Part shown: piece by piece, positions 58,601-62,364 of the stretch | How the letters are laid out: every line of letters starts with the position of its first letter | Position numbering within the stretch: the first letter of the stretch is position 1 | Assembly (NCBI RefSeq): GCF_000328765.2 | Contig: NC_019954.2 | Coordinates: 1,780,516 to 1,844,515, forward strand | Direction: 5' to 3' | DNA: 64,000 bases | DNA from: Tepidanaerobacter acetatoxydans Re1 | GTDB lineage: Bacteria > Bacillota > Thermosediminibacteria > Thermosediminibacterales > Tepidanaerobacteraceae | Notes under the pieces: model-generated | The model's input: only the letters and a program-made list of their open reading frames with translations | Database searches by the model: none | Told to the model about the DNA's origin: nothing | Translations under genes and position numbers: made by a program

Positions 58601-59227
58601 TGTTTTCCTCCTAGATGTATTTATATGACACTGCACTGCATCCTTCGATTATATTTTATTCTACAATAGATGTGGAATTCCTTCTTTTTGACCGGAATCG
58701 TATTATTTTTAAGGATAAGATATTTTGGTTTATTTTCATTATAATATTATAGCAGATTTTTGTTGGATTTTTTATGTGATTTACAAAAATGCATTTTTAA
58801 AACTTCTATACCTTATACTTGGTAACCAGTTGACAATCTGTGGAAATACAATCAATAGAGAAATTGTTATTGTGATTACTTTGGTCTTTGTTTTAATCGG
58901 AATGTAATCGAAAACTTCATCATTTTGAGTTCCTAGCTTCCGTTGCAATCGAGCAATCGGATTTAGTGAGGGGAAGCAGCGTAACTTCAGCCATTGGCAT
59001 CTCATCGTGAAATGTTGGTAACTGAAAAAGATTTACTTTGAAGAAATTCCGTAAACTTTACAAATAAAATAAATATGAACTTAAAAAAATGGAAATTAAG
59101 ATTGTGAAAGAGCCTGCTCCAGAACAATCGGAAATATCGATTGAAGAAAAACAAAAGCGGTTCCGATGTTCTCTGCTGTTTACAGCAAAAACATCGGAAC
59201 CGCTTTGCAAAACCTTATGAATAATTG
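58601..59227. other. Gene-poor region upstream of the glycan cluster
   Basis: About 600 nt without a credible gene. A TATAAT near 58652 on the minus strand, with a weak -35, may be the glycan-cluster promoter; an imperfect inverted repeat (ATTC-ACA/TGT-GAAT) overlaps its spacer. Apart from the terminator at 59154-59206 nothing else is recognisable. Confidence 0.5.
59154..59206 (-). terminator. Rho-independent terminator
   Basis: 17-bp perfect arms AAAGCGGTTCCGATGTT and complement with an inner GCTG/CAGC stem, followed on the minus strand by TGTTTTTCTTC. It would end transcription from the orphan gene at 59351-59911. Confidence 0.85.
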
Positions 59228-60152: not shown

Positions 60153-60202
60153 AAGGCCGGGCGGCTTATCCACTTAGAGCTGCCGGGCTTTTTTGTTTTT
60201 TC
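60153..60202 (+). terminator. Terminator-like hairpin upstream of the DUF1659 gene
   Basis: Stem GGCGGCT/AGCTGCC (one G-U) extended by CC/GG and AAG/CTT, followed by TTTTTTGTTTTTT. No coding gene precedes it on the plus strand, so it terminates or attenuates a leader transcript. Confidence 0.65.
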
Positions 60203-60309
60203 TTGTATTCCCCTATAATGAAATCACAAACACACCGCAGCAGTCTTTTAAAGGAGGTGGCCTGAGATTTTAAGTGGTGTGGGGAAAAAATGAAAGGAGG
60301 TGAAAAGAT

Positions 60310-60537
60310 ATGGCGATAGTTTCAACACCTTTAAATTCCAGTCTTCGCATCGTTGTGGAAACCGGTAAGGATGAAAATAATAAATCCATTTATAGAACCA
60401 GGTCTTTCAACAATGTAAAGACTAGTGCCACTGATGAGGATCTGATGAGCATAGCAGCTCAGTTGGCAGACATTCAGATTCATCCGGTATATGCGTTTCG
60501 CCGGACAGTGGAAAGTGAGCTCAGCGAAATAGTCTAG
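60310..60537 (+). CDS. DUF1659 domain protein
   Basis: A 75-residue protein of the DUF1659 family (STPLNSSLRIVVETGKDENN, then RTRSFNNVKTSATDEDL). Strong ribosome site AAAGGAGGTGAAAAGAT. Function unknown. It heads a cassette with DUF2922, YvrJ and an amidase that occurs together in many Clostridia and some Bacilli. Confidence 0.9.
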   Translation: MAIVSTPLNSSLRIVVETGKDENNKSIYRTRSFNNVKTSATDEDLMSIAAQLADIQIHPVYAFRRTVESELSEIV

Positions 60538-60583
60538 GAAATGGTAAATCCAATCTATAAAATCTTGAGAGGAGGTGAAAAAT

Positions 60584-60799
60584 GTGGATACGAATCTGGA
60601 GCTTGTTTTTAGGAATAGGGCGGGCAAAAATGCCAGGATTTCGCTGCAGGACCCTAAAGATGACCTTACTGCCGATGAAGTCCAAGCCTTGATGGATAAC
60701 ATTGTAACAAAAAATGTATTTGAAACGACCGGCGGCGACCTGATCGAAGCGGTAGAAGCCCGCCTTATACAGAAAGAAGTTGTACAGCTTATCGGTTAG
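60584..60799 (+). CDS. DUF2922 domain protein
   Basis: A 71-residue protein (LELVFRNRAGKNARISLQDP, DDLTADEVQALMDNIV). The GTG at 60584 was taken as start, 8 nt after AGGAGG; an upstream GTG at 60575 lies in that site. It resembles the DUF1659 protein in length and strand order, so the two may be distant paralogs. Function unknown. Confidence 0.9.
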   Translation: MDTNLELVFRNRAGKNARISLQDPKDDLTADEVQALMDNIVTKNVFETTGGDLIEAVEARLIQKEVVQLIG

Positions 60800-60863
60800 T
60801 TAGAAAAATCCCTGCCGGGCACTGGATGTGTCCGGCTAAACTACTATGGAAAGGAGGATTTTC

Positions 60864-61010
60864 ATGGACGAGTTGGTTGCTCATGTAGCTAATGTGGGAT
60901 TTCCCATTGTCGTTTCCATTTACCTTTTGGTAAGAGTTGAAACTAAGATTGAAAGCCTTACCTGCAGCATCTATGAGCTGGCCAAGGTTATCGAAGGTAT
61001 AAAGAATTAG
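60864..61010 (+). CDS. YvrJ family small membrane protein
   Basis: A 48-residue protein (MDELVAHVANVGFPIVVSIY followed by LLVRVETKIE). One membrane segment (about 10-24) and an amphipathic C-terminal helix, the YvrJ pattern. Perfect ribosome site AAAGGAGGATTTTC. The size, topology and adjacency to an amidase resemble holin/endolysin pairs. Confidence 0.9.
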   Translation: MDELVAHVANVGFPIVVSIYLLVRVETKIESLTCSIYELAKVIEGIKN

Positions 61011-61051
61011 TTGGAAAAATATCATTAATTAAGAAAGTGAGGAGCGGTCAT

Positions 61052-61561
61052 ATGGAAAGACTTTACCCGAGATTCATAGTAATACATCATACGGCTGGTT
61101 TCGATGTACCGGCACTTACTATAGATAGATATCATGCTGAAAGGGGTTTTGGCATAAAGATTACCTCACCTAAGCCTCTGGTGGAAGAATATGCAAAGAG
61201 AGGTTTTAAGCGTGTTTCGGACGGGGTTATGGTCAGTATCGGATATCACTATCTAATCCGAGCCGATGGTTGTGTGGAAAAAGGCAGGCCGGATTTTGCA
61301 AGGGGCGCTCACTGCACAGCTCAGAGTATGAATTTTCAATCTATTGGAGTAGCCCTCACAGGTAATTTTGACTCTAAAGACAATCCTTCCGGCAAAAAAG
61401 GGCATATTGCACCTACCTTGGGGCAAATCGAGGCTTTGAAAAAGCTTGTCTTTTACCTGATGGAGATATATCAGATTCCGGGGGAGAACGTAATCGGGCA
61501 TAAGCAGGTAAAGAATGCTTCCACCAGTTGTCCGGGAGATAGGTTTGAATTTAAGGTATGA
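61052..61561 (+). CDS. N-acetylmuramoyl-L-alanine amidase (amidase_2/PGRP family)
   Basis: A 169-residue zinc amidase: first ligand in FIVIHHTAG, GYHYLIRADG, and the C-terminal GHKQVKNASTSCPGDRF with the second His and Cys ligands. It cleaves the muramyl-alanine bond of peptidoglycan. No signal peptide, so it needs a holin-like partner or another route out; the YvrJ-type gene just upstream may supply this. ATG chosen behind GGAGCGGTCAT. Confidence 0.93.
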   Translation: MERLYPRFIVIHHTAGFDVPALTIDRYHAERGFGIKITSPKPLVEEYAKRGFKRVSDGVMVSIGYHYLIRADGCVEKGRPDFARGAHCTAQSMNFQSIGVALTGNFDSKDNPSGKKGHIAPTLGQIEALKKLVFYLMEIYQIPGENVIGHKQVKNASTSCPGDRFEFKV

Positions 61562-61668
61562 TACCACCTATATTTTTTTGCCTTGACATCGAACATATGT
61601 TTGGTTTATAATGGAATTGCTTTCGCCTCTTGCAAAATATTTTGATTACTATGTTGGGGGTATAGTTT

Positions 61669-62364
61669 ATGAATATGGAAGAGATTTTAGAAAATGGCCT
61701 TGCTGCTCTGCTTCCGGTATATAAGGAAGGCAATGTGACTATGATTTTTACCGGTGGCGGTGAACAGTTATTGGTCAGAAGAACCTGTAAAACGGTTTTA
61801 AAAAACCTTGCTAGGTTTTATGGTATAGACCTTACTGCGGTTCGCGAACACTACGGCAGTTTTATCAATAAGAAACAGGGCGTGCCCATCCCTATGGCAG
61901 TCAATCTGCTGCTTATACCGGTCAAGGTCAGAAAGAGTCCCTTGGGCGAAAATGACGGTACTTTTGGGTATGTGAATTTTCGGGAAATTAAACAAGTTGC
62001 CGATGGTGAAGGCGGAAAGTGCAGTATCACTTTTCGATGTGATAAAAGCCTTCTTGTGCTTGTGAGCCAATCCACTATGAGGGAATATATGAAAAATGCA
62101 CAGCTTGCGGAAAACATTTTCCTGAATCAGCATTTTCACGGATACGAGGAAACTGTAGGCAGGTCTTGGGAAAATCTGCAGGAGTCCGACAGTAAATATA
62201 GTGCACGAGTGCTCCCTTTTAAAAAAGCTTCTACAAAGGGTCAAAAAGCCCAGCTCTTCCCTTGGGAAAACTCTCTTGAGCATAGCGAGGTATTGCTTAG
62301 GGAGTATCTTCTGAAACTGCTGATGGAGATAATTGAACTGCAGAGGAATCAGGCCTTAAAATAG
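61669..62364 (+). CDS. Conserved protein of unknown function, faint ComK resemblance
   Basis: 231 residues, soluble, mixed alpha/beta, no membrane segment. The order of features (KTVLKNLARFYGIDLTAVRE, HYGSF, PIPMAVNLLLIPVKVRKSP, FGYVNFREI) recalls the competence regulator ComK, but I cannot confirm homology by eye. Start ATG after GGGGGTATAGTTT. Followed by its own terminator and then clpB. Confidence 0.65.
   Translation: MNMEEILENGLAALLPVYKEGNVTMIFTGGGEQLLVRRTCKTVLKNLARFYGIDLTAVREHYGSFINKKQGVPIPMAVNLLLIPVKVRKSPLGENDGTFGYVNFREIKQVADGEGGKCSITFRCDKSLLVLVSQSTMREYMKNAQLAENIFLNQHFHGYEETVGRSWENLQESDSKYSARVLPFKKASTKGQKAQLFPWENSLEHSEVLLREYLLKLLMEIIELQRNQALK

Follow-up and report, generated by a model that had tools for sequence, protein, structure and literature searches.

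What does a chromosomal row of small genes encoding DUF1659, DUF2922, YvrJ and an amidase do for its host? The row lies in a stretch of 64,000 nucleotides from Tepidanaerobacter acetatoxydans Re1 (hereafter the window), whose genome is a single contig of 2.76 Mb. The first three products belong to Pfam families with no assigned function, and in the open-access literature we found no paper naming more than one of DUF1659, DUF2922 and YvrJ. An earlier note had read positions 60310-61561 as four plus-strand genes, each with a good ribosome site, forming a domesticated, lysis-like but host-owned module. The gene calls were confirmed; the interval is too short because it leaves out a ComK-like gene and its LexA-box promoter (61583-62364), so that neither a regulator nor an SOS operator figured in that account of the locus. 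The functional unit is larger than four genes, the ComK-like gene being the fifth. Overall, the interpretation offered in the note is partly supported and is extended here: we judge the case evenly balanced as to whether the locus is a chromosomal, host-owned, SOS-linked envelope-opening cassette run by a ComK-like activator.

Five genes and their conservation

The features of the locus are as follows.

60156..60219, plus strand: putative activator-dependent promoter, with an imperfect hairpin, a T-tract and TATAAT, and no good -35
60310..60537, plus strand: DUF1659 protein, 75 aa (ATG at 60310; PF07872, 1.1e-24)
60575..60799, plus strand: DUF2922 protein, 74 aa (GTG at 60575; PF11148, 1.3e-24)
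60864..61010, plus strand: YvrJ, 48 aa, single-span, holin-like (ATG at 60864; PF12841, 7e-19)
61052..61561, plus strand: signal-less Amidase_2 (N-acetylmuramoyl-L-alanine amidase), 169 aa (ATG at 61052; PF01510, 1.3e-22)
61583..61612, plus strand: consensus sigma-70 promoter TTGACA-18-TATAAT, 12/12 matches
61590..61603, plus strand: predicted LexA (SOS) box CGAACATATGTTTG, within the spacer of this promoter
61669..62364, plus strand: ComK-like transcription factor, up to 231 aa (PF06338, 1.4e-4)

The Pfam matches of the first four proteins all exceed the curated cut-offs. The ComK-like protein scores 22.0 bits against PF06338, for which the cut-off is 22.3, and 18/44 aligned relatives match Pfam ComK at an E value of 0.01 or better (best, 4.3e-9). 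These 18 share their Pfam assignment with ComK of B. subtilis and S. aureus, from which the window protein differs in being divergent, just below the cut-off, and in having a predicted LexA box at its gene. We know of no LexA box at B. subtilis comK.

The neighbours of the cassette are the ComK-like gene, ClpB and polysaccharide genes; no phage gene was found among the neighbours examined, no bacteriocin gene is adjacent and no recurrent neighbour cluster resembles one. Upstream of the cassette, no credible Rfam match to a riboswitch or other known RNA was obtained. A long near-perfect hairpin with a stem of ~17 pairs, for which the Rfam match to mir-3047 is sub-threshold, lies at 59152-59206 of the window and is likely a terminator or a small repeat.

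Within the class, YvrJ is present as one chromosomal copy in 17/17 genomes, and the order DUF1659-DUF2922-YvrJ-amidase-ComK is kept in 14 of these 17. Together with the lack of phage genes nearby, these data support the description of the module as host-owned. They also bear on the idea that the locus is a prophage lysis remnant retained by chance, for which it can be said that relatives of YvrJ and of the hydrolases occur in phages. However, the single copy in every class genome and the conserved five-gene order, the intact catalytic residues, the absence of adjacent phage genes and the failure to find a DUF2922 relative in viral contigs all run against it; this explanation is largely refuted because the locus is conserved, and we consider it very improbable.

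Across the phylum, YvrJ was found in 172/398 genomes. Two overlapping sets of loci were compared: among 77 YvrJ loci, 66 also have DUF1659 and DUF2922, 33 have ComK and 27 have Amidase_2, and among 80 loci from named genomes the counts are 70 for DUF1659, 70 for DUF2922, 42 for ComK and 15 for Amidase_2. The grouping of the first three families is therefore not due to chance. In ~34 of the 80 loci, the gene directly upstream of DUF1659 encodes a protein of the sigma-70 family (regions 2 and 4). It follows from these counts that the DUF1659-DUF2922-YvrJ triple is the invariable core, that a transcription factor often joins it and that the hydrolase is accessory. Thermoanaerobacterium saccharolyticum (L161) is among the bacteria with the triple. 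YvrJ and ComK also tend to occur in the same genomes (119 with both, 53 and 30 with one only, 196 with neither; Fisher test, 2.7e-31, phylogeny not being controlled).

LexA box and promoters

The promoter between the amidase and ComK-like genes is the only 12/12 sigma-70 promoter of the region, and the predicted box in its spacer is a perfect match to CGAACRNRYGTTYG, the Gram-positive LexA box. Clostridial LexA operators have been described as GAAC-N4-GTTT or GTTC (PMC4234289). No other exact match to the box occurs in the 2.76-Mb genome; recA of this genome carries AGAACATATGTTTG at -40, one base off the box of the ComK-like gene. The same type of box precedes recA and/or lexA in most genomes tested, compared with 0/158 control windows. 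A LexA-type box is found near the start of 55/69 unique ComK-like genes across the phylum and in 3/3198 control windows, counts made with the motif relaxed to one mismatch or to the GAACRNRYGTTC core and including related genomes, which are not independent. In several Tissierellia the ComK-like boxes match only the relaxed form AGAAC..GTTCT, and this form was not found upstream of recA in those genomes.

Twenty ComK-like genes (L249-L268) are unlinked to YvrJ and 12 of them have a LexA box, which argues that the SOS operator belongs to the ComK-like family itself. The link between LexA and the ComK-like promoter is well supported computationally, and SOS control of this ComK family may be general in the phylum. 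As the box travels with unlinked ComK genes, the main targets of ComK may lie elsewhere. A LexA-type box also stands directly before DUF1659 in 8/60 loci without a nearby ComK; in relatives, the cassette is perhaps controlled by a sigma factor or by LexA directly. In the titles and abstracts of the open-access literature on ComK, LexA and the SOS response in Clostridia, a LexA-boxed ComK-family regulator tying DNA damage to competence or lysis was not apparent.

The putative promoter of the cassette itself has a T6-G-T6 tract at 60189-60201 and TATAAT at 60214-60219. The arrangement of a hairpin, T6-N-T6 and TATAAT without a good -35 before DUF1659 is kept in many members of the class, close and distant. 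A T-tract plus -10 pattern was detected in 22/41 loci that have ComK but lack a sigma gene, a count weighted heavily by class members, against 6/48 loci without ComK and 20/2158 control windows. This enrichment of the T-tract promoter with ComK, together with the co-occurrence of YvrJ and ComK, makes it likely that ComK activates the promoter.

YvrJ and the amidase as a candidate lysis pair

The description of YvrJ as a 48-residue single-span membrane protein was borne out by a single hydrophobic stretch in its sequence (mean of 1.97 over 19 residues). The window protein matches PHROG 4898 at 1.5e-6, the name of this family, 'holin', being an annotation only, and phage relatives of YvrJ match it at 0.0067 to 5.6e-9. 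The amidase matches PHROG 822 at 1.7e-24, its nearest solved relatives are amidases, T7 lysozyme among them, and residues H12, H150 and C160 are kept in 36/36 family members compared. Its N-terminus does not resemble a signal peptide in a crude hydropathy test, as the earlier reading of a signal-less amidase had it; domain, zinc ligands and (by this crude check) the lack of a signal peptide are those of an Amidase_2 endolysin.

A scan of viral contigs yielded 15 that bear YvrJ, and in 5 of these a Pfam-confirmed peptidoglycan hydrolase follows closely: an amidase in L096, L100 and L105, an M15 peptidase in L108 and a glucosaminidase in L109. On host chromosomes, M15 (6/77 loci), Amidase_3 and, in one case, M23 enzymes substitute for Amidase_2 near YvrJ. 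This exchange beside YvrJ points to a pair of the holin-endolysin type, the pattern of which is that unrelated hydrolases are swapped. Taken with the PHROG holin match and the position of phage YvrJ beside an endolysin, it favours the term 'lysis-like' at the level of sequence. As in phage holin-endolysin pairs (PHROG 4898, PHROG 822), YvrJ directly precedes a signal-less hydrolase whose type can be exchanged; unlike in phages, the pair is part of a host chromosome and is accompanied by two host-type DUF proteins and a ComK-like regulator with a predicted SOS box. Outside the class, most YvrJ loci have no adjacent hydrolase, and lysis is therefore not the sole role of the core.

Two further features were noted in the phage contigs. 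The YvrJ-like genes at L104:4195-4338 and L110:4033-4164 lie between head- or portal-type genes, with no endolysin beside them, which counts against the lysis reading. Directly after YvrJ in L097, L099-L103, L105 and L106, a protein of ~103-119 aa with apparent membrane spans recurs; it gave no Pfam or PHROG match among those tested and is possibly a second holin part.

YvrJ might also carry the amidase, and possibly other cargo, across the membrane without killing the cell, as proposed for TcdE, TpeE and UviB. The amidase is indeed signal-less, and the single-span layout with a charged helix resembles that of the BhlA/TpeE holins (PMC9527704); however, the YvrJ neighbourhoods showed no cargo gene that recurs, and we hold such non-lytic export to be improbable.

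DUF proteins, mechanism and known systems

The earlier note had called DUF1659 and DUF2922 two related small proteins. Their models share a predicted beta-beta-alpha-beta order (pLDDT 84 and 90, respectively) and for this reason the two may be distant relatives; the profile comparison gave no significant homology (probability 5.9%). Fold searches with both returned weak matches only, the top ones being phi29 p56 and p6 and other small proteins of this beta-beta-alpha-beta kind, with best VIA Z values of 5.4 and 4.4, inside the range of common arrangements. The models are thus weakly like p6 and p56, which are both small DNA-related proteins of a phage; the matches are too weak for a claim of function, and none is made. 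In a pattern scan of viral contigs for DUF2922, 26 pattern matches included 0 relatives, so that the origin implied by 'domesticated', that is, from phage, is unsupported. A tblastn search with YvrJ and DUF2922 against named phages gave no match, the queries being too short to be informative. The suggestion that the DUF proteins act as controls is unproven: a single weak match links DUF1659 to SroA, a regulator in S. aureus (17 bits against a cut-off of 80). SroA is part of a DNA-damage-induced SigS circuit (PMC13192611), and the match is therefore a hint of a regulatory role.

That match also enters into a different account of the locus, in which the small proteins, with YvrJ as a membrane anchor, act on the ComK or sigma factor encoded nearby, damage leads to competence rather than lysis, and the hydrolase, where present, merely makes the wall looser so that a DNA-uptake pilus can pass. 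Such a regulatory module would fit the constant core, usually with a regulator (sigma in ~34/80 loci, ComK in 42/80) and with a hydrolase in a minority, as well as the presence of ComEC in this genome. In B. subtilis, moreover, SigO-RsoA transcribes yvrJ (PMC8103513), and rsoA and sigO are up 8.7x and 3.9x, respectively, in competent cells (PMC7317962). Nevertheless, it leaves the pairing of YvrJ with varied endolysin-type hydrolases, in hosts and phages alike, unexplained, and we regard it as possible, if rather unlikely. Both outcomes could also be combined: in Clostridia, a LexA-controlled ComK-family regulator would direct competence and, in a fraction of the cells, holin-hydrolase lysis that supplies DNA, amounting to damage-driven genetic exchange. 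This more elaborate scheme we consider distinctly unlikely.

According to the envelope-opening reading that we prefer, DNA damage would inactivate LexA and free the promoter of the ComK-like gene, whose product would switch on the T-tract promoter upstream of DUF1659. DUF1659, DUF2922, YvrJ and the amidase would then be produced; YvrJ would disturb the membrane in the manner of small holins with a single span, the signal-less amidase would get to the wall, and the damaged cell would lyse or leak, releasing contents such as DNA or proteins. DUF1659 and DUF2922 would probably tune timing or transcription, which is the weakest step. We infer LexA binding, ComK control of the cassette, pore formation and lysis from the patterns described above, and the claim on regulation is stronger than that on lysis. 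The data suggest that many Clostridia carry a chromosomal, damage-triggered device that opens their own envelope. If this is true, competence or lysis would, in a large group of anaerobes, be coupled to DNA damage through a LexA-boxed regulator of the ComK family, and DUF1659, DUF2922 and YvrJ would gain a testable role.

The proposed mechanism has a counterpart in C. perfringens, in which the sigma factor UviA, the BhlA holin UviB and an amidase are found together on bacteriocin plasmids (PMC9527704), and the bacteriocin Bcn5 is SOS-induced, with a putative LexA site present (PMC4459074). Both sets combine a putative LexA site for the response to DNA damage with a regulator of their own, a small holin-like protein that would span the membrane once, and an amidase. 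The present locus differs in its ComK-like regulator, in the added DUF1659 and DUF2922, in being chromosomal and widespread and in having no adjacent bacteriocin gene. Nor is homology between YvrJ and BhlA significant: YvrJ has no Pfam match to the BhlA/UviB holins (PF10960), and its comparison with eight BhlA sequences in hhalign gave a probability of 7.7%. A search of this genome for PF10960 members also came back empty. By analogy, the cassette would work on paper like the UV-inducible UviA/UviB/amidase set without being a member of it.

The B. subtilis SigO-RsoA regulon (yvrJ, oxdC-yvrL) is comparable in that an alternative transcription factor controls YvrJ (PMC8103513). It differs in that no ComK or amidase has been described with yvrJ there and in that the stimulus is another one; DUF2922 gave no match in B. 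subtilis, used as the control genome. At L083:4590-6270, the genes flanking YvrJ encode a SigO-like protein (region 4), an RsoA-like protein (HTH_16) and an M23 peptidase, and this locus may connect the SigO-RsoA type of B. subtilis with the hydrolase type.
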